A stretch of 64,000 bases of DNA, taken from positions 7,025,501 to 7,089,500 of the forward strand of contig NZ_LT607750.1 of NCBI RefSeq assembly GCF_900090235.1. The letters are read 5' to 3'. Below, piece after piece: positions 9,679 to 40,190 of the stretch (its first letter is position 1; each line of letters opens with the position of its first letter). Under the pieces are notes generated by a model, which saw only the letters and a list, made by a program, of their open reading frames with translations, ran no database searches and was not told where the DNA came from. This stretch comes from Micromonospora echinaurantiaca (GTDB lineage: Bacteria; Actinomycetota; Actinomycetes; Mycobacteriales; Micromonosporaceae). A program made the translations under genes and the position numbers.

Positions 9679-10194
9679 ATGCAGTTCGGCCGCTACTACG
9701 AGGAGTTCGAGGTCGGCGCGGTCTACCGGCACTGGCCGGGCAAGACGGTCACCGAGTACGACGACCACCTCTTCTGTCTGCTCACCATGAACCACCACCC
9801 GCTGCACATGGACGCGCACTACGCCGAGACGGCCAGCCAGTTCAAGCGCAACGTCGTGGTGGGCAACTACATCTACTCCCTGCTCCTCGGCATGTCCGTG
9901 CCGGACGTCAGCGGCAAGGCGATCGCCAACCTCGAGGTCGAGTCGCTGCGGCACGTGGCGCCGACCTTCCACGGCGACACCATCTACGGCGAGACCACCG
10001 TGCTGGACAAGCGGGAGTCCTCCTCGAAGCCCGACCGGGGGGTGGTCGCGGTGGAGACCCGGGGCTACAACCAGGACGGCACGCTGGTCTGTGTCTTCCG
10101 CCGCCGGGTGATGGTCCCCAAGCGGGAGTACGCGGCCAGCGCGGTGCCCGAGGGCGTCGACCCGGAGCGCCCGAGCTTCCCCGAGCCGCGCTGA
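9679..10194 (+). CDS. MaoC family dehydratase (mesaconyl-CoA hydratase-like candidate)
   Basis: 171 residues, a single hot-dog-fold MaoC domain. FEVGAVYRHWPGKTVTEYDDHLFCLLTMNHHPLHMD contains the hydratase-2 type D-x-x-x-x-H-like active-site segment (TMNHHPLHMD). VGNYIYSLLLGMSV and VLDKRESSSKPDRG follow. Such proteins hydrate enoyl-CoA thioesters. In actinobacteria this subtype is found near malyl-CoA-lyase-like genes, as here at the left edge, suggesting hydration of mesaconyl-CoA or a related substrate. A 15-bp terminator hairpin follows at 10228. Confidence 0.85.
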   Translation: MQFGRYYEEFEVGAVYRHWPGKTVTEYDDHLFCLLTMNHHPLHMDAHYAETASQFKRNVVVGNYIYSLLLGMSVPDVSGKAIANLEVESLRHVAPTFHGDTIYGETTVLDKRESSSKPDRGVVAVETRGYNQDGTLVCVFRRRVMVPKREYAASAVPEGVDPERPSFPEPR

Positions 10195-17178: not shown

Positions 17179-18117
17179 GTGCGACGAGCATCTTCAGCCG
17201 GTCGACCCTCCGCCGCGGGGGGCCGGGCACCCCGACCGCGCGACGCCCAGCCCGAGCAGCTCGGTTTCGAGGGCATGCCGGAGCGGCTCTTCGTCTGCAC
17301 CCCCAGCAAACTCGGCACGTACGCGGACTGCCCCCGGCGCTACCGCTACTCCTACGTCGACCGTCCGGCCCCGCCCAAGGGCCCACCCTGGGCGCACAAC
17401 TCGCTCGGCGCCAGCGTGCACACCGCCCTGCGCAACTGGTACGCGCTGCCCCCCGAGCGACGCCGACCGGAGGCGCTGGCCGGGTTGCTCAAGGGCACCT
17501 GGGTCCGCGAGGGCTACCGCGACGACGAGCAGGAGCGCTCCGCCTACCGGCGGGCGCTGAGCTGGCTGGAGTCCTACGTGGCCACCCTCGACCCGGAGGT
17601 CGACCCGCTCGGCGTGGAACGGGTGGTCGCGGTGAAGACGGCGGTGCTGGCCTTCAACGGCCGGGCCGACCGGATCGACTCCCGCCCCGGGCCGGCGGGC
17701 CCCGAGCTGGTCATCGTCGACTACAAGACCGGCCGCACCGGCCTGGACGTCGACGACGCGCGCGGTTCGCAGGCGCTGGCCCTCTACGCGTACGCGGCCG
17801 AGCGGGTGTTCCGCCGGCCGTGCCGCCGGGTCGAGCTGCACCACCTGCCCACCGGCACGGTGGCCGGGCACGATCACACCGTCGAGTCGCTCGCCCGACA
17901 GGTGTCCCGGGCCGAGGAGACCGCGCGCGACATCATGGCCGCCGAGCGGGCCGTCGCCGACGGCGGCGACCCCGACGAGGCCTTCCCCACCACTCCGGGC
18001 CCCCGCTGCGGCTGGTGCGACTACCGGCGCAGCTGCCCGGCCGGCGCCCAGGCCCCCGGCAAGGAGCCGTGGGCGGCCATCGAGCGGCCGAGCGACGCGC
18101 TCCCCGGTCAGGAGTGA
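17179..18117 (+). CDS. RecB-like PD-(D/E)XK exonuclease family protein
   Basis: 312 residues if started at GTG 17179. ATG 17275 (MPERLFVCTPSKL) is an alternative, but the preceding LGFEG is usually conserved. GRADRID and ELVIVDYKTG are the D...(D/E)xK nuclease core. CPRRYRY near the start plus C-terminal CGWCDYRRSC give four cysteines able to hold an iron-sulfur cluster, as in AddB and Cas4-type nucleases. It probably acts in DNA processing. It stands alone, without a helicase partner here. Confidence 0.83.
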   Translation: MRRASSAGRPSAAGGRAPRPRDAQPEQLGFEGMPERLFVCTPSKLGTYADCPRRYRYSYVDRPAPPKGPPWAHNSLGASVHTALRNWYALPPERRRPEALAGLLKGTWVREGYRDDEQERSAYRRALSWLESYVATLDPEVDPLGVERVVAVKTAVLAFNGRADRIDSRPGPAGPELVIVDYKTGRTGLDVDDARGSQALALYAYAAERVFRRPCRRVELHHLPTGTVAGHDHTVESLARQVSRAEETARDIMAAERAVADGGDPDEAFPTTPGPRCGWCDYRRSCPAGAQAPGKEPWAAIERPSDALPGQE

Positions 18118-23282: not shown

Positions 23283-25571
23283 GTGACGCTACGTGGGCGG
23301 TTGACCGCAGCCTTCCTGGCGGTGGTGCTCGGCCCGGTGCTGCTCGGAGCGTTCTTCGTCGCCTCGACCGTAGCGTCCGTCGACCGCGGTCGCTCCACCG
23401 AGCGCCTCGCCGTGGCGGCGGCGACCGTGCGTACCGCCGTCGACGCCCTCTGCCAGCAGTTGCGTGCCGCCGCCGACGCGGTCGCCCTCACCCCCGACCA
23501 CGCCGGCGCCGCCGGGCAGGTGGTCAGCCGGGGCCTCGCCGCCGCGGTGCGGGTCACCGACCAGGCCGGCCGGGTCACCTACGCGACGCCGGGCTCGCCG
23601 CCGGCCCCGTGGCGGGACTGCGCGGCCGACGCCCCGGCGTTCGGTCCGGTGTCGGCCCTCGCCGTGCGGGTGGACCTGCGCGACCCGGCCGGCGTCGGGT
23701 TGGGCGCGGTCGCCGCCGCGCAGCCGGTGGACCCGGCCTTCGTGGCCCGGCTGGCGGCGGTGACCGGCGTGGCGGTCACCCTGCTCGACGGGGCTGCGGC
23801 GCCCGCCCGGGTCGCGCACACCACCGAGGCCACCGGGGTACGCGACGCCGTGCTGGGCGCCGCCGGCAGGGTCGACGGCGAGGCGGTCACCGAGACCGCC
23901 GACGGCCGGTACGTCCGGCGGGTCGGCCCGACCTCCGGGCAGCCGCTGCCGCTGGTGCTCTCCGTGCCCAGCGACCAGCCACCGGGCCTGCGGGGCGCGC
24001 TGGTCGGCGCGGTGCTGCTGGCCGCCCTGCTGGCGGTGGCCGTCGCCTGGCGGCTGGCCCGGGTGACCACCCGGCCGCTGGTGGAGCTGGCCGGCGCGGT
24101 GGACCGGGTGGCCGGTGGCGACCTGGGCACCCGGGTCCCGGTGCGCAGCCGCGACGAGATCGGCCGGCTGGCCGGCGCCTTCAACCGGATGACCCGGGAG
24201 ACCGGCAGCTACGTGGCGGCGCTGACCAGCAGCCGGGACCAGCTGCGCGGGCACCTGGCGGTACTCGGCGACACCCTGGCGAGTACCCACGACCTGCAAC
24301 GCATCCTGCGGGTCATCCTGCACAGCGCGATCGCGGCGACCGGTGCCCGGGCCGGCGCCGTGCTGCTGCTGGACTCCGGCGGGGTGCTCGTGGCGCAGTG
24401 CACGGAAGGGCTGGACGGGCGCCTGCCGGCGGACGACCCGCCCGATTCGGCGCCGTTGCGGGTGCCGGTGGGCGCCGGGGTGGTCGGCGCGGTCGCGGCG
24501 ACCGGCGAGGCCCGGCGGGGCCGGATCGAGCCGTCCGAGGTCCCGGCGGGGGAGCCGCGCTGCCAGACGTACGTCGCGGTGCCGTTCGCCGCGCCCGGCG
24601 CCGCACCGGCCGACCCGCCCGGACGCGGCGCGGAGAGCGCGGCCGCGGCCCGCCCCGGTGACCCGGCGCCGCGCCCGGGGGTCGACCCGGCGCCCGAGGC
24701 CGGCGCGCTCGGCGTGCTCGCCCTCTACGACCGGCTCGGCGCGGACGAGTTCGACGACGACGACCTGCGCACCCTGCGTACCTTCGCCGGGCACGCGGCG
24801 GTGGCGGTGGACAACGTGCGGGTGCACGAGGAGGCGCAACGGCTCTCCCTCACCGACCCGCTCACCGGGCTGTGGAACTACCGCTACCTGCGCGAGTCGA
24901 TGCGCCGGGAGGTGGAGCGGGCCAACCGGTTCGGCCGGATGCTCAGCGTCCTCGCCCTCGACCTGGACCGGTTCAAGCAGGTCAACGACACCTACGGGCA
25001 TCCGGCCGGGGACGCGGTGCTGGCCGAGTTCGCCCGCCGGGTGCGCGGCGAGATCCGCGAGGTGGACCTCGCCTTCCGGCAGGGCGGCGAGGAGTTCGTG
25101 GTGCTGCTGCCGGAGACCGACGCGCGCGGCGCGGCGATCGTGGCGGACCGGCTCGGTGCGGCGATCCGGGACACGCCGATCGCCGTGCACGGGCACGGCG
25201 GCACCCCGGTGACGCTCGTGGTCACCGTGTCGATCGGCATCGCCGTCTACCCCGACCACGGCACCACCGGGCAGCAGGTGCTGGACGCCGCCGACGACGC
25301 CCTCTACACCGCCAAGGACGCCGGCCGGGACACCTGGCGGGTGGTCAGCGCGCGCCGTACCCCGCCGGTGCGGGAGATCCCGGTCCCGGCGGCGGCGGTC
25401 AGCCCGGCGGACGGGTTCCCCCGGGCCGGCGCCGGTCCGGCCCCGCCGGCCGGCGGGGCGGCGCCCGGCGAGCCCGAGCCGTGCGGGGCCGCGCCGGATG
25501 CCGCCCGGGCCGGACCGGCCGGCGGCGCGTCTTCCGGGCCACACCCGCCACGGCAGACCCGTGGCCGATAG
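23283..25571 (+). CDS. Membrane diguanylate cyclase (HAMP-GAF-GGDEF)
   Basis: 762 residues from GTG 23283. Order: membrane helix (about 8-30), external sensor region, second helix (LRGALVGAVLLAALLAVAVAW), HAMP (VTTRPLVELAGAVDRVAGGDLGTRVP), GAF (about 330-500, with a Pro/Ala insert), then GGDEF-type domain with GGEEF at 601-605 and an RxxD inhibitory I-site at 592-595. An active c-di-GMP synthase with product inhibition is expected. The C-terminal 70 residues are Pro/Ala-rich. The open frame begins far upstream, but that part overlaps the divergent folate gene. Confidence 0.88.
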   Translation: MTLRGRLTAAFLAVVLGPVLLGAFFVASTVASVDRGRSTERLAVAAATVRTAVDALCQQLRAAADAVALTPDHAGAAGQVVSRGLAAAVRVTDQAGRVTYATPGSPPAPWRDCAADAPAFGPVSALAVRVDLRDPAGVGLGAVAAAQPVDPAFVARLAAVTGVAVTLLDGAAAPARVAHTTEATGVRDAVLGAAGRVDGEAVTETADGRYVRRVGPTSGQPLPLVLSVPSDQPPGLRGALVGAVLLAALLAVAVAWRLARVTTRPLVELAGAVDRVAGGDLGTRVPVRSRDEIGRLAGAFNRMTRETGSYVAALTSSRDQLRGHLAVLGDTLASTHDLQRILRVILHSAIAATGARAGAVLLLDSGGVLVAQCTEGLDGRLPADDPPDSAPLRVPVGAGVVGAVAATGEARRGRIEPSEVPAGEPRCQTYVAVPFAAPGAAPADPPGRGAESAAAARPGDPAPRPGVDPAPEAGALGVLALYDRLGADEFDDDDLRTLRTFAGHAAVAVDNVRVHEEAQRLSLTDPLTGLWNYRYLRESMRREVERANRFGRMLSVLALDLDRFKQVNDTYGHPAGDAVLAEFARRVRGEIREVDLAFRQGGEEFVVLLPETDARGAAIVADRLGAAIRDTPIAVHGHGGTPVTLVVTVSIGIAVYPDHGTTGQQVLDAADDALYTAKDAGRDTWRVVSARRTPPVREIPVPAAAVSPADGFPRAGAGPAPPAGGAAPGEPEPCGAAPDAARAGPAGGASSGPHPPRQTRGR

Positions 25572-29726: not shown

Positions 29727-29803
29727 GGGGCTGTGGCGCAGACCGGTAGCGCACCTCGTTCGCATCGAGGGGGTCAGGGGTTCAAATCCCCTCAGCTCCA
29801 CCA
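29727..29803 (+). tRNA. tRNA-Ala(CGC)
   Basis: A full cloverleaf can be drawn. The acceptor GGGGCTG (29727-29733) pairs with CAGCTCC (29793-29799, one G-T). The D arm is GCGC/GCGC, and the anticodon stem CCTCG/CGAGG encloses loop TTCGCAT (anticodon CGC). The T arm holds TTCAAAT, with discriminator A29800. CCA is genome-encoded (29801-29803). The gene is intact and is the insertion target of the mobile island that follows. Confidence 0.95.
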
Positions 29804-29865: not shown

Positions 29866-31125
29866 TCAGCGCGGACTCTGTGATTTCGGGGTCGACGTCC
29901 GGCGTCTGGCGCTCGCGGCCTGGAGCGCAGTACTGATGATGTTGCGGCGGCGGTCTTTCTTGGGCCACCAGTGAACGTAGGTCTCCAGCGTGATCCGCAG
30001 GCTGGAGTGCCGCAGCGCGTTCTGCACGTCGGTGGGATCGGCACCCGAGGTGATCAGGCGGGTGGCGAAGTAGTGCCGCAGGGAGTGGAAGGTGCCACCG
30101 TCGGGCCAGTCGGCAGCCTTGCGCCATGTCCGCCACATGTCGGACCAGCGCTGGTCGTGGATCGGTCGGCCCAGGTCGTCGGTGAACAGCAGCGGGACCA
30201 GGCGGCGGCGGGGCTCCTTGCCGGGGTCGGGCGTGCCGGCGGTGATGTCGGGCAGCTCGACCAGGACGGGCGGATGCTTGCGGACGTGCTCGGCGAAGAC
30301 CGCCGCCACATGGTCGTCCAGGTCCACGTCACCGACCGAGCCAGCCTTGGGCGGAGCGAGGTAGAAACCGCCGTAGCTGGCCTTGTGGAACCGCAGTTGC
30401 TGAACCACATGGACTTCCTGACGGTCCGGGTCGACACACCGCGTGCTGTCCTCCAGGCCGAGGACTTCCCCCAGTCTCAGACCCTCGCCCGCGCCGGCCC
30501 AGATGGCCGCCTGATATTCGTGGGGCACCACGTCGACCAGGGCGAGCACGTCGTCATCGGTCGGTACCCACTTGGGTGCGCGGGAGAAGCCGCGCAGGAT
30601 CGCGAAGAGTCGGATCGACTTGCAGGGGTTGTCGGGTATCACCTTGTCGGCCACGGCCGAGTTCATGATGTTGTTCAGCAGGTCGAAGTAGGTCTTGACC
30701 GACGACTGCGCAACGTTGGCTTGCAGGAGTTTGGCGATCCATTCGAGTACGTCGGTGACGGTGATTCCGCGAATCGGGCGATCACCGAAGTGCGGGTAGT
30801 GGTGATGCCGTAGCCGGGACTCGGTGTGGCGCTGGTAGTCGAGTGCCTGCCCGATCTGCCGTGAGACGCGCCACCGCTCGGCGTACTCACGGAAGGTGGA
30901 GCGTCGCTCGCTCTGATCAATCTTGGTTTCCTCGGCGAGCCCGGCACGCGCTCGGGCATCGAACGCTTCGGCGTCGTCCTTCCGTTCGAATAGACGTTCC
31001 CGAGGTTCCCCGTTCGCGTCTTCGTACCGACACCGCCAGCGCTTACCGCGCCCATACCGCTCCGACTTGAGTCGCTTCCCATCCGGTCCACGCTTTTTCA
31101 GGTACCACCGATCATCGACGGCCAT
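29866..31125 (-). CDS. int: Tyrosine recombinase (AICE integrase)
   Basis: 419 residues from ATG 31125. The N-terminal SAM-like DNA-binding domain (about 75-165) is followed by a catalytic domain with R217 (GLRLGE), H347-S-L-R350, H373 and nucleophile Y383 (ETYVHWW). All five core residues are in place, so the protein should be active. It integrates and, with the excisionase, excises the element at tRNA-Ala. The start overlaps the excisionase gene by 14 bases. ORF sequence upstream of ATG 31125 belongs to that overlap. Confidence 0.93.
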   Translation of the reverse strand: MAVDDRWYLKKRGPDGKRLKSERYGRGKRWRCRYEDANGEPRERLFERKDDAEAFDARARAGLAEETKIDQSERRSTFREYAERWRVSRQIGQALDYQRHTESRLRHHHYPHFGDRPIRGITVTDVLEWIAKLLQANVAQSSVKTYFDLLNNIMNSAVADKVIPDNPCKSIRLFAILRGFSRAPKWVPTDDDVLALVDVVPHEYQAAIWAGAGEGLRLGEVLGLEDSTRCVDPDRQEVHVVQQLRFHKASYGGFYLAPPKAGSVGDVDLDDHVAAVFAEHVRKHPPVLVELPDITAGTPDPGKEPRRRLVPLLFTDDLGRPIHDQRWSDMWRTWRKAADWPDGGTFHSLRHYFATRLITSGADPTDVQNALRHSSLRITLETYVHWWPKKDRRRNIISTALQAASARRRTSTPKSQSPR

Positions 31126-31312
31126 TAGCGCCCCCTTGTCCGGTGAGCCAGGAGCGCACCTCGCTGGGGTCATAACGCAGGTGACGGCCGACCTTGAAGG
31201 CCCGAGGCCCGGTGCGCCGGGACCGCCACTGGTAAAGGGTGTCTACCGGAATGCGCAGGAACGCGGATACCTCCTCGATGGTCCAGAGTGGTTCGTTGGT
31301 GGTTATCGTCAT
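31112..31312 (-). CDS. xis: Excisionase, MerR/AlpA-like helix-turn-helix
   Basis: 66 residues. LWTIEEVSAFLRIPVDTLYQWRSRRTGPRAFKVGRHLRYDPSEVRSWL is the small winged HTH of the excisionase (HTH_17) family. It overlaps int by 14 bases and the upstream 67-residue gene by 4 (TCAT), so all three are co-translated. It directs the integrase toward excision. Confidence 0.88.
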   Translation of the reverse strand: MTITTNEPLWTIEEVSAFLRIPVDTLYQWRSRRTGPRAFKVGRHLRYDPSEVRSWLTGQGGANGRR

Positions 31313-31512
31313 GAGCTCTCCTTTCGGGTGATGGTGATGTAGGCGCGGCTTTCGCCGCTGTAGCCGGCGGGGCGGGTGCTGGTGCGGCAGGTGACGTGCT
31401 CGCGGCCGTAGTAGGCGGCGAGCTGGGCCGCGATGGTGGCGGCGTGGGCGGTGACGGAGGCGGTCGGCCCGATGAGGCGGACCGCGACCAGGGGGCGGGG
31501 GCGTGTGGGCAT
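31309..31512 (-). CDS. Small hypothetical AICE protein (67 aa)
   Basis: From ATG 31512 (MPTRPRPLVAVRLIG). Contains AATIAAQLAAYYGREHVTCRTSTRPAGYSGESRAYITIT, an alpha/beta pattern ending in a YITI strand. It is the first gene of the [67 aa]-xis-int unit. Its promoter region between 31513 and 31603 holds the palindrome at 31590-31607. Role unknown; such short genes are regular companions of xis in these elements. Confidence 0.7.
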   Translation of the reverse strand: MPTRPRPLVAVRLIGPTASVTAHAATIAAQLAAYYGREHVTCRTSTRPAGYSGESRAYITITRKESS

Positions 31513-31589
31513 GCCGTGCTCCTTCCAGGTGGCCGGGCCGGGGTGCTGGTCGGTCGCTGTGGAGTTGTCAAGGAACGGGTTCGCAGGCG

Positions 31590-31607
31590 TTGACACGTAC
31601 GTGTCAA
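31590..31607. promoter_or_regulatory. Palindrome TTGACACGTACGTGTCAA, copy a (before xis-int unit)
   Basis: A perfect 18-bp palindrome that overlaps the stop codon of the repSA gene and lies 78 bases before the 67-aa gene that heads the xis-int unit. The same core occurs at 35286-35301 and 37751-37768. Each arm contains TTGACA, which is also a -35 hexamer. Probable binding site of an element-encoded regulator. Confidence 0.75.
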
Positions 31608-33193
31608 GCGGCCAGGGGTCGGGCGGCGGTCCGGTGGGCCGCCAGCTCGTCGGCCAGGGCGTCGAGGCCGGCTTGGTGTCGGGCGCGGGCTTGGGCGGCG
31701 GCGGTGTTGGCGAGCAGGGCGTCGCCGGTGGTGATCCAGCCGGTGGCGTGGTAGCCGAGTTCGTAGATGACGCGTTCGGTTTGTTCGTCGTCCCAGGTGT
31801 GGGGGTGGCCTTCGGTGCGGCGCCAGATGGTGCGCTGCATGCGCAGGAAGCCGAGGGTGACGGAGAAGGCGCGGCTTTTGGTGGCGATGTGGCCGCCGTA
31901 GCCGAACTGGTGCGCCCAGCGGCGAAGCCGGGCGTAGTCGGGGTGCTCGCCCAGGTCCCAGCACGCGCGGATGAGCCGGCCGAGGTGGGTGCGCGGGTCG
32001 CCGTGGGTCTGGACGGAGAGGTCGTCGACACGGCGAAGGTTGAGGCCGGTCACTTCGGTGCTTTTGGTGACGTACTTGGCGATGTAGCCGGTGATCTGGG
32101 CGAGGTTGACCTCATGGCCGGGGGCGTTGACGTGCTTGAGGTCCAGGCCCTTGTCACCCCACGCGATGTGCCAGCCCTGCCCGCCGTTGGCGGGGTGCGG
32201 GGCCGAGGTGTAGGCCGTCTTGACGAACGCGGCCCGGACCGCCTCTTCGAACAGGCCCCGGGTGATGATCCGGGGTGGGGGCACGATGGCCTGCGGGCAG
32301 TCGGGGTTGTAGCCGTCGAGGCGGATGAGGGCGTGGTAGTGGATGACGCCGCGTACCTGGAATTCGTAGACCTTGATGTAGCGGCGGCGCAGCTCGACAC
32401 CGTGGGCGCGGCCGAGGCGGCGTAGCTCCCGGTCGACTTGCTGGATGGTGCGCCGCCACAGTTCGGGTGCTTCGTGGTTCCAGACGACCTGGCCGGTGTG
32501 GTCGTAGCAGTCCAGGCAGAGAGGCTGCCCGAGGTGGGCGTCACTGGCCTTGTGCCGCGTACCGCAGCGCAGGTCGACGCCGTGGGGGCAGGTGCGGCCG
32601 AAGGGGTGGCAGACGGCGGCGCGGCAGGTGCAGCCGTCCTTGCGGCGGCAGTCCGCGGCGTGGACCTTCACTACGCGGTGGTGGACCGGTCCGAAGGAGG
32701 GGGCGGTGGCGGTGAGGAAGATGGCGATGTGTTCGTGCAGGGGCGGCAGTCCCCACCGGTCGCCTTGTAGGCCGGCTTTGATGAGGTGGTAGGTGTCGCG
32801 GCGGTAGACCTCGGCGCAGGACGGGCAGACGGCGGCGCGGCGGTTGCCGCACGGGGTGTAGATCGCACCGTCGGGCATGTCCTCGGTGTCGATGGTGGCC
32901 ATGCGGTTGCCGTCGGCGTCGGTGACGTGGATCTGTCCCGCGAGGCGGATGGGGTGCTTGCAGGCCGAGGCCGCGCGGACGTGGCCCAGCCATTCGGGGT
33001 AGTCGGGGTCCTGGGCGCGGGCGCGGCCGGAGGCGACGGTGCGGGGGTCGTGGCCGCGTACCCAGCCGTCGCCGGGTGGTGGGGTGCGGGTGGGGGTGGC
33101 CCAGGGCCAGTAGCCGGCGGTGGGTTCGGCGGAGGCTCCCGTGCCCGAAACCGTGGTGGTTTCGGGCGCGAGAGGCAGCGTCGAGGAGGTCAC
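31604..33193 (-). CDS. repSA: Replication initiator protein, RepSA type (HUH)
   Basis: 529 residues. Several Cys-rich zinc knuckles (CPSC near 123, CRRKDGCTCRAAVC near 182-195, CLDC near 226). The HUH metal-binding motif HYH is at 285-287 (RGVIHYHALIRLDGY), and Y370/Y374 lie in GYIAKYVTKS, the catalytic tyrosine region of rolling-circle initiators. In pSAM2, RepSA nicks the element's own origin so it replicates after excision. Overlaps the upstream SpdB-like gene by 4 bases. Confidence 0.88.
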   Translation of the reverse strand: MTSSTLPLAPETTTVSGTGASAEPTAGYWPWATPTRTPPPGDGWVRGHDPRTVASGRARAQDPDYPEWLGHVRAASACKHPIRLAGQIHVTDADGNRMATIDTEDMPDGAIYTPCGNRRAAVCPSCAEVYRRDTYHLIKAGLQGDRWGLPPLHEHIAIFLTATAPSFGPVHHRVVKVHAADCRRKDGCTCRAAVCHPFGRTCPHGVDLRCGTRHKASDAHLGQPLCLDCYDHTGQVVWNHEAPELWRRTIQQVDRELRRLGRAHGVELRRRYIKVYEFQVRGVIHYHALIRLDGYNPDCPQAIVPPPRIITRGLFEEAVRAAFVKTAYTSAPHPANGGQGWHIAWGDKGLDLKHVNAPGHEVNLAQITGYIAKYVTKSTEVTGLNLRRVDDLSVQTHGDPRTHLGRLIRACWDLGEHPDYARLRRWAHQFGYGGHIATKSRAFSVTLGFLRMQRTIWRRTEGHPHTWDDEQTERVIYELGYHATGWITTGDALLANTAAAQARARHQAGLDALADELAAHRTAARPLAA

Positions 33194-34089
33194 GCGGTGG
33201 CTCCCACGGCAGTGCCGTTGTGGGTCTTGTCGTTGATGGTCGGTTGGTTGGTGGTGAGGGCCGTCAGGATGTCGGCGGCCGTGGTGGTGGGGACGCGCAG
33301 CCGCACGGCGAGTTGGCCGGCGGTGATGGGCTCACCGTGGGCCTTCTCGTGAGCGGCAGCGACGATCCGGGCGTTGGACAGCAGTGCCGGCGGCGGGCCG
33401 GTCATGGCTGGCGCGGGCGCCGCAGGTGCCGGGGTCGCGTCGGTGTCGGTGGTGTCCGGGGTGGGCTCGACCGTCGTCACGGTCGCGGTGTCCTCGCCAG
33501 AGGTGGACAGGGTGATCGGTTCGCGGGTGGGTGCGGTGTCGGTGTCGGGTGCGGGGTTGGTGGCCGGGGTCGCGGCGGCCGGGCGGACCAGCGGTGAGGC
33601 GGGGATGTCAGGTGACGACGCCTCAGCGGTGGTGGCCGGCACCAGTGCCGAGACAGGTGCAGTCAGCCGGTTGGTGGTGCGCTTTCCGGTGGCGAGTAGA
33701 GCGGCGGTGGCCATGAGCATCAGGCCATCGACGGCGAGGGGACCGAACCAGACGACGAGGGTTTCCTCGTTGTAGTGGTCGAGCAGTCCGGACAGGTGCC
33801 GGTAGGACACGAACGCGGCGACCAGGGCGACGGGCGGCAGCCCGACCCAGCGCAGCACGTTCCAACCCCAGCCCGTCGGCCAGGGCGTGCGAGCAAGGAT
33901 CTCGATAGCGATGAACAGGAACAGCGGCCAGACGATCGAGGAGACGACCGCGCCGGGTTCCGGGCTCCAGTTCTCCGGTGCCCCGTCGGGGGCGATGAAT
34001 GAGTGAGCGATGTTCGCGGCGACGGAGACGAGTCCGCCCAGGACCAGGCCGAGGTAGGCCCAGCCGCGCGAGGGTCGAGAGGTCGTCAT
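33190..34089 (-). CDS. DUF2637 membrane protein (SpdB-like)
   Basis: 299 residues from ATG 34089. About four helices in the first 150 residues (GLVLGGLVSVAANIAHSF, VVSSIVWPLFLFIAIEIL, LRWVGLPPVALVAAFVSYRHLSGLLDHYNEE, WFGPLAVDGLMLMATAALL) carry the DUF2637 signature. A Thr/Pro/Ala linker follows, then a C-terminal small helix-turn-helix-like segment (NARIVAAAHEKAHGEPITAGQLAVRLRVPTTTAADILTAL). Spd proteins help spread the element between hyphal compartments. The HTH-like tail suggests DNA contact. Confidence 0.82.
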   Translation of the reverse strand: MTTSRPSRGWAYLGLVLGGLVSVAANIAHSFIAPDGAPENWSPEPGAVVSSIVWPLFLFIAIEILARTPWPTGWGWNVLRWVGLPPVALVAAFVSYRHLSGLLDHYNEETLVVWFGPLAVDGLMLMATAALLATGKRTTNRLTAPVSALVPATTAEASSPDIPASPLVRPAAATPATNPAPDTDTAPTREPITLSTSGEDTATVTTVEPTPDTTDTDATPAPAAPAPAMTGPPPALLSNARIVAAAHEKAHGEPITAGQLAVRLRVPTTTAADILTALTTNQPTINDKTHNGTAVGATA

Positions 34090-34220
34090 CGGTGCCTCCG
34101 GGGCCGGCGGGTGCGGAGGTTGGCGCAGTCGTGGCAGCGGGGACCCTTTTCGAAGGGGCCGAGTTCAGTGCCGCAGTTGGCGCACAGGCGCAGGTCGTAG
34201 TCATCGAGGGTCGGGGTCAT
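34086..34220 (-). CDS. Small zinc-ribbon protein (44 aa)
   Basis: From ATG 34220: a 44-residue protein with CANCGTE and CHDC, two CxxC pairs 15 residues apart, then an Arg-rich tail. It overlaps the SpdB-like gene (ATGA) and the SprT-like gene (ATGA), so it is embedded in a tightly coupled operon. Possible DNA- or protein-binding accessory of the element. Confidence 0.75.
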   Translation of the reverse strand: MTPTLDDYDLRLCANCGTELGPFEKGPRCHDCANLRTRRPRRHR

Positions 34221-35329
34221 CGGTCGTCTCCGTGGCAGTCGAGGCAGGTGCCGGTGCGGCGGGGGATGTAGTAGGGCTTGACCTGCCGGCAGTCGGGGCA
34301 GGTACGCCGGGCGGTGAGCGCCGTGTCGATGGCGGCGCGTTGCGCCGGGGTGGCGGTCCGCTTGGGCACCGCCAGGTCGAGACGGAACAGGTAGGCGACG
34401 CGCTTACCGCGACGCCAGAGGATCTGCGCGGCGGGTTCCTGGCCGCCGGGGCGCAGCTGTCGGTCGCGGAGCTGGCGACGGGTCAGCAGCCCGTCGGGGG
34501 CGAACTTGAAGGGGTAGGTCGGCAGGCCGAAGCGCTCGCCGGTCGGGTCGTAGAAGACCATCGGGTCGTCGTCCTCCGGGTCGTCGGTGGCCTGGCCGTC
34601 ACCGGCACGGCCGGTGGCGAAGGTGGGGTGTTCGTAGGTGTCGCGGTCGATGTCCTCGGGCAGGAAGGCAGCGCCGCAGGTGGCGCAGACGATCGGCCCC
34701 TCTTCGAAGGCCGCCTTGGAGATGCGCAGCTTGCGGGGGCACTCGCACTCGCACGAGACGCCGTTGTTGTTGTTCGTGCGGGACTTGCCTTCCCCGGTCG
34801 GTTCGGGGTGGCGGTAGAAGCGCAGCGCCTCGGACAGGTCAGCGATGACCGCCTTGTAGCGGGCGCGGGTGAGGTCGGTCAGGGTGCAGGGCGAGTAGCC
34901 GAGCTTGTCGTCCTTGGTGGTGGACATGCCGAGTTCGGCGGCCAGGGTCGAGAACTTCTTGTTGTGCCAGCGGCCCTGCCGGGAGGTGTCCTGGATGCCC
35001 CGGACGTCGGCCAGGGCGTGGGTGGCTTCGTGCAGCAGGGTGGTGAACACGGCTTCCGGTTCGCGGGTCAGGCCCTCGCCGGAGATGAGGATTTCGGGGA
35101 GTTGGGTGTCGCCGGCCTGCCAGCGCAGCGCGGCGAAGTGGCCCCACTTCATGCCCTGATTGGGCTTGGTGGGGGAGCCGGAACCGACCACGATGACGGC
35201 GGCCGGGACCTCGGGGTGCCGCTCGCGGATGGCGGCCCAGGCGGACTCAAGCGCGGTGATGAGCGCGGCAGTGGAGACAGCGTTTTGACACGTACGTGTC
35301 ACGTCAGTGATGTCGATAGCGGTGGTCAT
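34217..35329 (-). CDS. SprT-like zinc metallopeptidase with C-terminal zinc ribbons
   Basis: 370 residues from ATG 35329. HEATH (100-104) in LLHEATHALADVRG is the zincin motif, and RQGRWHNKKFSTLA downstream gives the SprT-type third region. Cysteine clusters CECECPRKL / CATCGAAF and a terminal CPDCRQ / CLDCHGDD look like two zinc ribbons. SprT/Spartan-like proteases cut DNA-bound proteins; in this operon a role in clearing DNA-protein adducts or host defence proteins during transfer is an inference. The palindrome copy b lies inside codons 10-15. Confidence 0.78.
   Translation of the reverse strand: MTTAIDITDVTRTCQNAVSTAALITALESAWAAIRERHPEVPAAVIVVGSGSPTKPNQGMKWGHFAALRWQAGDTQLPEILISGEGLTREPEAVFTTLLHEATHALADVRGIQDTSRQGRWHNKKFSTLAAELGMSTTKDDKLGYSPCTLTDLTRARYKAVIADLSEALRFYRHPEPTGEGKSRTNNNNGVSCECECPRKLRISKAAFEEGPIVCATCGAAFLPEDIDRDTYEHPTFATGRAGDGQATDDPEDDDPMVFYDPTGERFGLPTYPFKFAPDGLLTRRQLRDRQLRPGGQEPAAQILWRRGKRVAYLFRLDLAVPKRTATPAQRAAIDTALTARRTCPDCRQVKPYYIPRRTGTCLDCHGDDR
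35286..35301. promoter_or_regulatory. Palindrome TGACACGTACGTGTCA, copy b (before sprT-rep block)
   Basis: 16-bp perfect palindrome identical in its core to copies a and c. It sits at the 5' end of the SprT-like gene, overlapping its first codons, downstream of the GGDEF gene. It may mark an internal promoter for the SprT-zinc ribbon-Spd-Rep block. Confidence 0.7.
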
Positions 35330-36048
35330 GCGGCCCTCCAGCTGGTTGGGGCGGCGGCGAGGAGACTGGTGGGACGGGCCAGGTCACGGGGCCGATCGGT
35401 CGCCCGCAGGTCGGCGGGGGTGTCGGTGGTGTCCGTGAAGACGGCGGTCGTCCGGCGGTTGGCGCGGGCGGCGTACATGGCCAGGTCGGCCCGGTGCAGC
35501 CACACGGCGGCGGGGTGGCCGGGATCGGCCAGGACCGCGCCGAGAGTCGCGCCGACAGCCAGCGGGCGGCTGTCGTAGCTGACCGGCGTGGTCAGCCGGG
35601 TGTGGATGTGGGTGAGCCAGTCGGCCAGCCAGGTTGCGGCGTCGCCGCGCCGGGTGGCGGGGCCGGTGGTGATGACGGCGAATTCGTCGCCGCCGAGGCG
35701 GGCGGCGATGCCGGCGGGGCCGGCGATGCCGGCAAGCCGGTTGGCGACGGTGGTGAGGATGTGGTCCCCGGCGTCGTGGCCGTGGGTGTCGTTGACCTTC
35801 TTGAAGCCCACGAGGTCGACCAGGACCACCGCGACGGGTCGGGAGGTGGAGTGGGCGGTGCGGATGAGGGTGTCGGCGGCGGCGGTGAGGCCGGCGCGGT
35901 TGTGGATGCCGGTCAGCGGGTCATGGGTAGCCGTGTGCCGGACGGTGGCGAGTTCAGCCCGCAGGCTGTGACGGGCGGTGAGGTAGCCGGCGGTCGCGGC
36001 GGCGCTGATAGCGGTGGCGGTGATGAGGGCGCGCAGTCGGGGCGTCAT
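35326..36048 (-). CDS. GGDEF domain protein (diguanylate cyclase) on the mobile element
   Basis: 240 residues. One N-terminal helix (ALITATAISAAATAGYLTA) is followed by a full GGDEF domain: HDPLTGIHNRAGL, DLVGFKKVNDTHGHDAGD and intact GGDEF at 119-123. No RxxD inhibitory site is seen five residues before it, so product inhibition is unlikely. The last 50 residues are Thr/Ala-rich. Overlaps genes on both sides by 4 bases. It should make c-di-GMP, which in actinomycetes controls development (BldD), so the element may tune host differentiation for transfer. Confidence 0.85.
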   Translation of the reverse strand: MTPRLRALITATAISAAATAGYLTARHSLRAELATVRHTATHDPLTGIHNRAGLTAAADTLIRTAHSTSRPVAVVLVDLVGFKKVNDTHGHDAGDHILTTVANRLAGIAGPAGIAARLGGDEFAVITTGPATRRGDAATWLADWLTHIHTRLTTPVSYDSRPLAVGATLGAVLADPGHPAAVWLHRADLAMYAARANRRTTAVFTDTTDTPADLRATDRPRDLARPTSLLAAAPTSWRAA

Positions 36049-36572
36049 CGGGCACCGAGCCAGGCGAGGAAGCCCTCACGGGTGGGGCGCTTTTCCGCCC
36101 ACACGCAGGCATCGGCGTAGGTTTCGAGGTCGTCCTCGGTGGCGTGCGACCAGTCGTAGTCGTCGGCAGCAGCGCGCAGGGTGGAGATGACCTGCTCGGC
36201 GGTGCGGCCGGGGCGGTCGTTCCACTCGAACGGGTCGGTGTCGAGGTCACCCTCGTGGTAGGGCCGGGCCGGGTCCGGGCCGGCGGTGTCCAGGTGGCAG
36301 GTCAGGGCGTCGAGGGTGCGGGAGTAGCCGCGAGCGGCGGCGGGGTTCTTGTGCTCGTGCGGAACGGGGATGCGGTGGCCGTAGACGGCTACGGCGATCG
36401 CGCCAGCCACGCAGGCCGGCGGGAACGGGTTGTCGTCCTGACTCGGGGCGTAGTAGACGCCTTGCGTCCAGCCCCTGAGTTCGAGGTAGCGGGCGGCGCA
36501 GCGCAGGATGTCGGCCGGGCTCAGGTCGGCCAGCGCGCCGGGGATGTGGTGCTGGTTTTGGGTAGGGTTCAT
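36045..36572 (-). CDS. DUF6197 family protein
   Basis: 175 residues from ATG 36572, with AAAGGA about 10 bases before; GTG 36581 is too close to that site. ILRCAARYLELRGWTQGVYYAP, ACVAGAIAVAVYGHRI and a C-terminal DLETYADACVWAEKRPTREGFLAWL are the family features. It is a soluble actinobacterial protein family found on mobile elements and chromosomes. Function unknown. Overlaps the GGDEF gene by 4 bases. Confidence 0.75.
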   Translation of the reverse strand: MNPTQNQHHIPGALADLSPADILRCAARYLELRGWTQGVYYAPSQDDNPFPPACVAGAIAVAVYGHRIPVPHEHKNPAAARGYSRTLDALTCHLDTAGPDPARPYHEGDLDTDPFEWNDRPGRTAEQVISTLRAAADDYDWSHATEDDLETYADACVWAEKRPTREGFLAWLGAR

Positions 36573-36661
36573 GGCGGCCACGTCCTTTCGTGGGCGGTGG
36601 TTGGTGGCCGACGGGCCGGGTTCGCTTTCCTAGGGCTGGTCCCGGTCTGTCGGCCGTTCCT

Positions 36662-36847
36662 CTATCGGTGGTGCAGGTGGAGCCGGAGGAACACCCGCTG
36701 CCGGCCGTCGTCGGCGGCGGTGGGTGCGGATCGGAAGATGAGCGCGCCCGCGTTGCGGGCGATGGCGGTGAGCGCGGCGATGTCCTCGCCGGTGCCGACG
36801 AGCACCAGGTCCAGGACTCGGGTCGGAACAGCCGTCGTGGTCTTCAT
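36662..36847 (-). CDS. Small hypothetical AICE protein (61 aa)
   Basis: From ATG 36847 (MKTTTAVPTRVLDLVLVGTGEDIAALTAIARNAG). It overlaps the stop of the TraSA-like gene by 4 bases (ATGA) and is followed by an 89-base gap before DUF6197. An alpha/beta pattern with VFLRLHLH as last strand. Not recognised. Confidence 0.65.
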   Translation of the reverse strand: MKTTTAVPTRVLDLVLVGTGEDIAALTAIARNAGALIFRSAPTAADDGRQRVFLRLHLHHR

Positions 36848-37731
36848 GCCGCCGCCTTCATGTCGGTGGCCTGCCCCTCGGCGGGGGTCACGAGGCCGCT
36901 GTGCCGGCGGGTCCACGCGGCGTAGTCGGCGACCCGGATGATGTCGGCGTCGGTCATGTAGGCGGCCTTGACCAGGGCCGGGATGCCGCCTTCGGCGATG
37001 AGGAGGCCGGCGCCCTGGTTGTTGGGGTCGATGGTGTTGGAGGAGAAGCCGCGGGCGGCCCAGCCGTGCCCGAGCACGATGTCGGAGGACACGTCGGTGG
37101 TGCAGCGGCCAGCGAACCGCCACGCGAACAGGTCCCGCAGCGAGGTCGGGATGATGTCCGAAGACGGCCGCTGCGTGGCGGCGGCGACGATGATGCCGAC
37201 GGCGCGGCCACGGGCCACGATGTCGCGCAGCAGCGCGGCGAACAGCTCCTGTTCCTTCTTGTCGCCGGCGGTGGCGGAGAAGTAGGCGATCTCGTCGCAG
37301 GCGACGAGGATCTGACCGAACAGGTCGTTCGGGCCGATCTTCCGGCGACGGCGGGCCTTGAGGAAGGCGTAGCGGTTGTCCATCACCGTCTGCACCCGGC
37401 GCAGGGTGCGGATGGCGTAGGCGAGGTCCGGGCCGACGAACACGTCACAGGCGTCTTCCCACAGCCCGAGTTCGACCTGCTTGCCGTCGAGCAGGCACAG
37501 CCGCACGTCCGGGCACAGGGCCGCGTGCCCGACGATGGTGTTGAGCAGGCTCGACTTGCCCGCGCCGGGCTCACCGCCGATGAGGATGTTCCGGTAGATC
37601 ATCGGCAGGTACACAGCCTGGCCGAACTCGTCGATGCCGAGGAACACCGGATCGAAGATGGACAGGCCAGCGCCGACCGGCACCGTGGCGGTCGGGTTGG
37701 CGGGGAGTTCGATGGTGTCGGTGAGGTCCAT
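36844..37731 (-). CDS. FtsK/SpoIIIE-type DNA translocase (TraSA-like)
   Basis: 295 residues from ATG 37731. Walker A GEPGAGKS (53-60) and Walker B ILVACDE (D146/E147), then RDIVARGRAVGIIVAAATQRPSSDIIPTSLRDLFAWRFAGR, the RecA-fold FtsK pattern. No membrane segment is present. At this size it resembles TraSA of pSAM2 (about 300 residues), the single protein required for double-stranded DNA transfer. A separate membrane protein encoded upstream (37847-38785) may supply the anchor. The palindrome copy c lies 20 bases before the start. Confidence 0.88.
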   Translation of the reverse strand: MDLTDTIELPANPTATVPVGAGLSIFDPVFLGIDEFGQAVYLPMIYRNILIGGEPGAGKSSLLNTIVGHAALCPDVRLCLLDGKQVELGLWEDACDVFVGPDLAYAIRTLRRVQTVMDNRYAFLKARRRRKIGPNDLFGQILVACDEIAYFSATAGDKKEQELFAALLRDIVARGRAVGIIVAAATQRPSSDIIPTSLRDLFAWRFAGRCTTDVSSDIVLGHGWAARGFSSNTIDPNNQGAGLLIAEGGIPALVKAAYMTDADIIRVADYAAWTRRHSGLVTPAEGQATDMKAAA

Positions 37732-37750
37732 GGCGGGCTCCCGAGGTCGG

Positions 37751-37768
37751 TTGACACGTACGTGTCAA
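37751..37768. promoter_or_regulatory. Palindrome TTGACACGTACGTGTCAA, copy c (before tra block)
   Basis: Identical 18-bp palindrome to copy a, 20-37 bases upstream of the TraSA-like ATG, in the promoter region of the tra-GGDEF block. Typical operator position. Confidence 0.8.
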
Positions 37769-39440: not shown

Positions 39441-40190
39441 ATGCCGAACGACCGTCTACGTAGCGGGATGCTTAAGAAGGGCCTGACGCCGGCCACACTG
39501 GCGGACAGGCTCGGCGTCGACCCAAAGACGGTCGAGCGTTGGGTCACCCAGAGCCGGAACCCGTACCCGCGCTACCGCCACTCCATCGCAGAGCTCCTGG
39601 ACGAAAGTGAGTCGTACCTTTGGCCGGACGCTCTGCCGACGCAGCGAGCGGTGCAGGTCAGCCAGTCCGAAGTCGTTCACATCTACCCGCGCCGCGGAGC
39701 CGTCCCGCCCGACCTCTGGCAGCAGCTCCTGGAGAAGGCCACTCGACAGGTCGGCGTCCTGGTCTACGGCGGGTTGTTCCTGCCCGAGTTCAACCACCGC
39801 TGGATACCCACGCTCCGGGAGAAGGCGCTGGGCGGCGCCCAGGTCGAGCTGCTATTCGGCGACCCGGAGGGCAGGCACATCGCCGAGCGCGGTGACGACG
39901 AAGGCATCGGGCATGCCATGTCCAGCAAAATCCTGAACGCGCTGGCGTTCTACAAGGACCTGCGGGACCTGCCCAACGTCGGGATCTACTACCACGACAC
40001 GATCCTCTACAACTCCATCTACCGCTTCGACGACGAGATGCTCGTCAACACCCACCTCTACGGCACACCAGCCGCCTACGCCCCGGTGCTGCACCTGCGC
40101 CGACTCGGCGGCGGGGACCTCTTCGACAGCTACGTCGCCAGCTTCAACCGAGTCCTCGGCAAGAAGCGTGCCGTCTGGCCTGAACACTGA
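39441..40190 (+). CDS. HTH transcriptional regulator with DUF5919-type C-terminal domain
   Basis: 249 residues from ATG 39441, 6 bases after AGGAG. The open frame upstream to 39315 covers the operator and was excluded. GMLKKGLTPATLADRLGVDPKTVERWVTQ (10-38) is an XRE-type helix-turn-helix. The rest (DLWQQLLEKATRQVGVLVYGGLFLPEF, VELLFGDPEG, VGIYYHDTILYNSIYRFDDEMLVNTHLYG) is the DUF5919 domain found on actinobacterial regulators next to Nudix genes. Likely master regulator of the element. It is followed by the Nudix gene after 26 bases. Confidence 0.8.
   Translation: MPNDRLRSGMLKKGLTPATLADRLGVDPKTVERWVTQSRNPYPRYRHSIAELLDESESYLWPDALPTQRAVQVSQSEVVHIYPRRGAVPPDLWQQLLEKATRQVGVLVYGGLFLPEFNHRWIPTLREKALGGAQVELLFGDPEGRHIAERGDDEGIGHAMSSKILNALAFYKDLRDLPNVGIYYHDTILYNSIYRFDDEMLVNTHLYGTPAAYAPVLHLRRLGGGDLFDSYVASFNRVLGKKRAVWPEH

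Follow-up and report, generated by a model that had tools for sequence, protein, structure and literature searches.

The window analysed here is a stretch of 64,000 nucleotides of the Micromonospora echinaurantiaca genome (NZ_LT607750.1, positions 7,025,501 to 7,089,500 of the forward strand; coordinates below are those of the window), and it contains an actinomycete integrative and conjugative element (AICE) of the pSAM2 type with its genes on the minus strand. The same palindrome, TTGACACGTACGTGTCAA, occurs at three positions in this element, is conserved in its relatives, and is coupled both statistically and evolutionarily to sprT, the gene for a SprT-like protein. We propose with moderate confidence that an element-borne switch uses the palindrome as its operator, and that the factor reading it is a dimer that travels with sprT and is most likely SprT itself. 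A common switch of this kind for unrelated actinobacterial mobile elements would point to a role for a protein family of unknown function.

Three copies of one palindrome in the element

Copy a (31590–31607, matching at 18 of 18 positions) lies on the stop codon of the rep gene (TGA, minus strand, 31604–31606) and 5′ of orf31309, xis and int. Copy b (35285–35302, 17 of 18, with a perfect 16-bp core at 35286–35301) lies within the first codons of sprT, beginning 27 bases past the A of the ATG and within the reading frame, and copy c (37751–37768, 18 of 18) lies 5′ of tra, its end being 19 bases from the tra ATG. There is no fourth place in the window that matches the palindrome at up to three mismatches, and the highest count in 100 dinucleotide-preserving shuffles of the window was zero. 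The 7.2-Mb host genome, a single contig, contains six copies, split equally between this element and another at 5.679–5.685 Mb; at up to three mismatches there are none beyond these six, and a reversed-pattern control also gave zero.

Conservation of the sites in related elements

A preliminary description of this DNA had reported the palindrome at these three places, as one shared site heading the xis-int, sprT-spd-rep and tra-GGDEF blocks, and both observations hold when related elements are searched, as the site is conserved and occupies the same places in sister elements. The 16-bp core (the 16-mer) is present in 23 of 160 genomes of the genus, in 43 of 354 genomes of the family (genus included) and in 9 of 44 genera, with none for the reversed control. 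Fifty loci (L028–L077) were fetched for the 16-mer and mapped with the window proteins; because these were selected for at least one exact site, conservation of the core is partly by construction. The 16-mer places of four genomes (G328, G337, G340, G342) are absent from the place list, of which the first three were reached through sprT and G342 was left out.

Twenty-one loci, the window included, have one site in front of tra, another at the sprT start and a third that overlaps the rep stop codon ahead of xis-int, and in 27 loci there is a site at the start of sprT. The earlier observation that copy b overlaps coding sequence stands; given the 27 loci, it is not a mis-set start of this element alone. 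The distance from site to tra, 19 bases in the window, extends to about 300 bp in other genera, where core protein identity drops to 59–83%. The mean majority fraction is 0.96–0.98 in the 18 site columns and 0.52–0.77 in the 20-bp flanks; site centres read GTAC, CTAC or GTAG, 91 of the 92 sites have A at position 18, and position 1 is unconstrained.

Coupling of the palindrome to sprT

Of the 50 16-mer loci, 29 encode a SprT domain and 21 do not. Read in the other direction, the exact 16-mer is present in 31 of the 33 family genomes with a SprT domain, and G162 and G315, which lack it, have variants (L112 and L113). A survey of tra genes in the genus gave 96 hits, of which all 18 in SprT-bearing elements have the site and none of the remaining 78, 23 of which were read as DNA, has an exact 16-mer nearby. 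We also compiled a locus table composed of the window, 26 of the 29 SprT-bearing 16-mer loci, and loci from further fetches; it excludes the 21 SprT-less 16-mer loci as well as L029, L035 and L049, all with SprT and sites. At least one motif is carried by 33 of 33 SprT-bearing loci in this table, and 22 of 24 SprT-less loci carry none. Fourteen SprT-less AICEs of the same backbone contain no TGACA-N6-TGTCA sites in 280 kb; one of the fourteen, L124, is in the same host genome as the window.

The paired state requires four changes on the tra tree, at least three of them forced by well-supported branches, and the single-clade hypothesis is rejected by the approximately unbiased (AU) test (p-AU 9.9e-5), with L077, L109, L112 and L117 forming long branches. 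On a tree of 66 SprT proteins the canonical-site label needs 7 changes, compared with 20.8 when shuffled. Among 15 motif-bearing elements compared, SprT is the sole family present in all 15 and the next is present in four, a comparison that is not independent as every element was reached through SprT or the site.

Plasmids, phages and symmetric variants

Across 49 viral SprT loci the motif can be generalised to TGACA-N6-TGTCA, with 80 sites with centres other than CGTACG distributed among 27 of these loci; 59 permuted half-sites searched in the same loci gave a mean of 0.47 and a maximum of 8. Spacing is equally restricted, as a spacer of 6 gives 83 sites and the other spacers from 0 to 14 no more than two each. 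A motif search, for which 77 of at least 120 stretches were examined, recovered 14 loci with at least three sites; SprT is encoded in eight, two more (L320 and L366) are pieces of contigs with SprT on the other piece, and four (L311, L356, L370 and L378) have none in the DNA read.

Eleven plasmids and parts of two phages were also read, with permuted half-site controls at no more than two per record. A Brachybacterium plasmid has one exact site about 40 bp before sprT and a Microbacterium plasmid has two sites; the Amycolatopsis plasmids FU40 and pA387 have four each with CTTAAG-type centres, pA387 also containing the symmetric TTGACGCTTAAGCGTCAA. Gryllotalpicola has two sites and Prauserella one, with near-matches besides, and phiAsp2 has four sites plus 13 with one mismatch. 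Symmetric variants occur over the annotated sprT start in Iamia (TTGTCACGTACGTGACAA) and upstream of sprT in Frankia pFQ12 (TTGGCGTGTACACGCCAA). Phage phiC31, in which no SprT is annotated, has no motif. Some phage sites overlap promoter-like hexamers. A terminase scan planned as a control recovered one relative besides the query and so provided no control set.

Several further features of these genomes are recorded here. In an Amycolatopsis plasmid (L424) one site, at 25231, lies on the stop codon of the upstream gene, like copy a, and another, at 18102, follows a kilB-annotated gene. Two SprT-bearing Streptomyces plasmids (L431 and L434) have a different 16-bp palindrome, GTCGCCAATTGGCGAC, at several places. 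The viral contigs L261, L264, L265 and L353 contain TTGACA-N6-TGTCAA before many genes, after a folded leader with a T-arm-like hairpin; in L265 this is a stem enclosing two hairpins. Rfam gives one short tmRNA match in L265, and ARAGORN predicts no tRNA in L265 or L353.

Other actinobacteria and a second genus

A scan of GTDB species genomes found 85 stretches with the palindrome, and we examined 32 of these (30 outside the Micromonosporaceae) together with 12 viral stretches, 44 of 97 loci overall. A SprT domain is encoded in 15 of the 32 (eight from Nocardia, two each from Microbacterium and Actinomadura, and one each from Agromyces, a Pseudonocardiales metagenome-assembled genome (MAG) and an Actinomycetota MAG), two (L136 and L142) are pieces of SprT-bearing contigs, and 15 have none; several of the latter, such as AT-rich stretches from other phyla, are probably chance matches. 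SprT is present in three of the 12 viral stretches.

A second genus (g46), which is probably Nocardia because the arrangement in L466 matches that of Nocardia otitidiscaviarum L132, was searched for both features in 118 genomes. The 12 genomes with SprT at E<1e-85 are precisely the 12 that contain the 16-mer, for which 1/C(118,12) is 1e-16. This cut was set afterwards, on seeing a break in the E values from 1e-88 to 1e-76; with the cut used for the search itself, E<=1e-30, the 16-mer is in 12 of 21 SprT genomes and in none of the other 97. The reversed control matched one genome (G839). The motif lies within 60 bp upstream of 14 of the 16 sprT genes at E<1e-85, these being 14 of 29 SprT loci in all, and two more loci have an exact site 1.5–1.8 kb away. 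Tandem copies of the site, 31–35 bp apart (once 76), precede sprT in Nocardia. A second inverted repeat, GGGCAGGCC and GGCCTGCCC with a 3–4 bp spacer, is present about 130–170 bp before sprT in 8 of the 29 loci (among L446–L455 and L466).

The SprT-like protein

The sprT gene (34217–35329, minus strand) encodes a SprT-like domain (residues ~1–235, with a HEATH motif and a C-x-C..C-x2-C ribbon) fused to an RRQRL zinc-binding domain. The HExxH motif is conserved in all 17 aligned members. The window protein scores 18.5 bits against Pfam SprT-like, below the curated cut-off of 25.6, and 15 of the 17 members match at E<=0.1. The family corresponds to phrog_6361, of unknown function in PHROGs, and the annotation of phage Samy links phrog_6361 to Spartan (6MDW). 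A structure model (pLDDT 84.9, pTM 0.68) gives weak metallopeptidase-like matches in Foldseek, the best being 2EJQ (prob 0.97, E 0.056), and a PDB sequence search gave one chance-level match and nothing else. Residues between 173 and 202 differ between proteins associated with different half-site variants, a difference that is confounded with phylogeny.

A proposed operator and its reader

The symmetric half-sites, fixed spacing, symmetric variation, tandem copies and positions at the heads of genes together argue for a dimeric DNA operator. A dimeric factor would recognise a pair of TTGACAC half-sites flanking a 4-bp centre. It would do so at three points of the pSAM2-type element, before tra, at the start of sprT-spd-rep and before xis-int, and would thereby couple transfer, replication and excision; the SprT-like protein would be autoregulated through the site at its own start. 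The position of the sites, their conservation and their coupling to sprT are shown by the data; action as DNA rather than RNA, repression as the mode of action and SprT as the reader are inferred. SprT is the prime candidate since no other shared gene was found, and that it is itself the sequence-specific reader is a tentative proposal. Equally tentative is the broader suggestion that the SprT-like proteins of phrog_6361 could form a new class of autoregulated sequence-specific switch proteins, co-evolving with an 18-bp operator and switching unrelated mobile elements of actinobacteria on or off, be they integrative elements, conjugative plasmids or phages. Searches of titles and abstracts found no paper on a SprT-linked operator, and the palindrome and two variants were not found as text strings, in literature whose coverage omits most subscription journals.

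A number of observations weigh against this proposal. The coupling is stronger from sprT to site than from site to sprT, as 12 of the 43 family genomes with the 16-mer (G010, G020, G045, G152, G157, G231, G261, G262, G263, G264, G268 and G342) lack a SprT domain, judged from the genome table and among the matches listed, and we have slightly lowered our estimates for the operator and for SprT as its reader on this account. Some of the SprT-less exceptions are fragments at contig ends (such as L055). Others are less readily set aside: five SprT-less loci have rep or int (L034, L059, L069, L075 and L076), three reduced elements (L041, L044 and L053) have pairs of sites and neither sprT nor tra, lone sites occur in L031, L032, L068 and L070–L073, and the two SprT-less loci of the locus table with one loose match each are the G091 sequence present twice. 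There is no TGACA motif in three SprT-bearing Streptomyces plasmids and Samy, nor in Streptomyces chromosomal relatives of SprT, and the three plasmids have instead TAGCGTGT[G/T]CACGCTA at the start of the SprT domain. In the second genus 15 of 29 SprT loci are without a motif within 60 bp, 13 of them being more distant relatives with no motif. The third site is not immediately before tra in L058, L074, L108, L110 and L112, where it is further upstream, before orf38k/orf39k. Copy b lies within coding DNA. Between 31300 and 38000 there are no promoter-like sites of the sigma-70 type with TTGACA as the -35 (shuffle mean 0.2), and no -10 hexamer at the proper distance from TTGACA is seen in the site alignment; this gives no support to the preliminary hint of an internal promoter at copy b, and a sigma-70 promoter role for the palindrome in the window was rejected. 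Lastly, Foldseek recovers no transcription-factor fold and no match at E<=0.001 with the SprT model.

The reduced elements L041, L044 and L053 are of interest in their own right. Their palindromes (at 10161, 9879 and 9753, respectively) are in pairs 25–33 bp apart, int, xis and a RepSA-like gene are kept, and similar host genes flank them. They are possible satellites of SprT elements, and as such these operator-bearing elements without sprT may listen to the switch. The lone exact palindrome at L068:9230 is in no recognised element, and its neighbours look by eye like carotenoid synthesis genes and a MerR-type regulator.

Alternative readers and roles

The preliminary description envisaged one factor acting on all three blocks, and the shared site is consistent with this; the readers that it named, among them the helix-turn-helix (HTH) protein encoded at 39441–40190 (plus strand), are not supported. 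The HTH gene does not track the palindrome and was rejected as the reader. Relatives of this gene are present in 9 of the 33 SprT-bearing loci of the locus table and missing from 24, including the palindrome-bearing L028 from the same genome, and are also present in six of the 24 SprT-less loci, none of which has the site. A different division of labour, in which the palindromes are bound by a repressor distinct from SprT and the role of SprT is to remove that repressor by proteolysis, would resemble the ImmR/ImmA protease-repressor pair that is reportedly established in ICEBs1. The HExxH conserved in 17 aligned members and the association of SprT with the sites suit such an arrangement, but we find it doubtful, given that the regulator slot beside orf39k contains XRE-type, GntR-type, other or no called genes (partly by eye) and that no family other than SprT reaches more than 4 of the 15 compared elements, leaving no common cognate repressor gene. 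That a host-encoded actinobacterial regulator reads the palindrome, its operator having been adopted by sprT mobile elements, is unlikely. The exact word is common to hosts of several orders, lone chromosomal copies exist, and sites occur in genomes without a SprT match; however, the host genome has no other site at up to three mismatches, which led us to reject a host regulon, the variants differ between elements of related hosts (CTTAAG-type in Amycolatopsis plasmids, CGTACG in the Pseudonocardiales MAG), and SprT-less AICEs of the same hosts are without the palindrome. WhiA, whose motif is GACAC, was considered as a reader and rejected for want of further sites in the host genome.

It is very improbable that the palindrome works at the mRNA level, folding into a 7-bp hairpin with a tetraloop ahead of ribosome-binding sites. 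In several SprT phages many genes have the motif just 5′ of their ribosome-binding site, downstream of a folded leader, and the hairpin is part of the predicted fold at copies a and c. At copy b it is not (z +1.36); the CGTACG, CTTAAG and ATTAAT centres are symmetric, which is needless for a loop, copy a is at a gene end, and tandem copies precede the Nocardia sprT. We regard as scarcely credible that the palindrome is a replication, nicking or transfer site (an origin or clt-like) instead of an operator, an option that the preliminary description had also allowed. Copy a is 14 bp before the conserved TTCCTTGACAACTCCACAGCG block discussed below, but this block is absent beside copies b and c, and the RepSA and Tra relatives without SprT carry no palindrome, so an origin or Rep site was rejected.

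The element and its other genes

A protein-domain scan finds the gene set of a pSAM2-type AICE (tyrosine integrase, excisionase, RepSA and FtsK-type Tra), and all of the genes that follow are on the minus strand. The integrase gene (29866–31125) adjoins a tRNA-Ala gene (29727–29803, plus strand), whose 3′ region has no repeat of 14 bp or more elsewhere in the window; a second att repeat of this length was thus not found there. It is preceded by genes for an excisionase-like HTH_17 protein (31112–31312) and a small conserved open reading frame (ORF) between rep and xis (orf31309, 31309–31512). The RepSA-type replication initiator (31604–33193; PF20199, E 7.6e-133) and a DUF2637 protein (33190–34089, the spd of the preliminary description) are encoded between these and sprT, and the tra block contains a GGDEF protein (35326–36048), a DUF6197 protein (36045–36581) and the FtsK/SpoIIIE-type transfer protein (36844–37731; PF01580, E 9.9e-14). 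The element also holds two more conserved ORFs. The GGDEF gene is diguanylate-cyclase-like and is present in some sister elements only.

The conserved TTCCTTGACAACTCCACAGCG block, at 31555–31575, lies after rep, with CTTGATAACTCC as the version in L058. We take it to resemble a rolling-circle nick site, and it is a candidate double-strand origin of RepSA elements. The NUDIX gene beside the HTH gene at 39441–40190 is part of an HTH-NUDIX-HD group, and PMC3218068 describes a similar one, the mdp-nud-xre cluster.

Comparison with known systems

The SprT/Spartan metalloproteases have the HExxH in common with the window protein, which matches Pfam SprT-like only weakly, and we know of no sequence-specific operator role in that family. 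The likeness to ImmR-ImmA of ICEBs1 lies in an element-borne HExxH protein tied to control sites, and the difference in that no common repressor gene was found here.

A stoperator is a 13-bp asymmetric site bound by an HTH repressor. The sites described here are similarly short, repeated and dispersed in the element, some beside genes, but are symmetric, 16–18 bp long and have a fixed 6-bp spacer, and do not qualify as stoperators. The stoperators of cluster A mycobacteriophages are named in PMC3203893, as are the start-associated sequences (SAS) and extended SAS (ESAS) of Cluster K; SAS are 13 bp and asymmetric, and the 17-bp inverted repeats have variable spacers. The likeness in this case is of repeats near gene starts, accompanied by inverted repeats, and of a SprT relative encoded by the same phages. 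SprT-like proteins of mycobacteriophages are described in sections of PMC12363180, and no mycobacteriophage record matched in our SprT query.

The closest system by element type is that of pSAM2, with its KorSA/Pra control; SCO3932, a homologue of KorSA, is a GntR regulator. According to PMC8584621, replication, excision and transfer are all held to be controlled by a single regulator acting through operators. No GntR-family repressor is among the ten window proteins scanned, and no GntR gene is seen in the window element; the sister element L028 has one GntR-like gene, named by eye. The same paper states that no KorSA site was found upstream of traSA, in contrast to the site before tra here, and gives the SCO3932 motif as AC[TC]T[AG]TT[GC][TG][GT]ACG, which by eye differs from the palindrome. 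A SprT-linked operator could account for the coupling of excision, replication and transfer in an AICE that has no KorSA gene.

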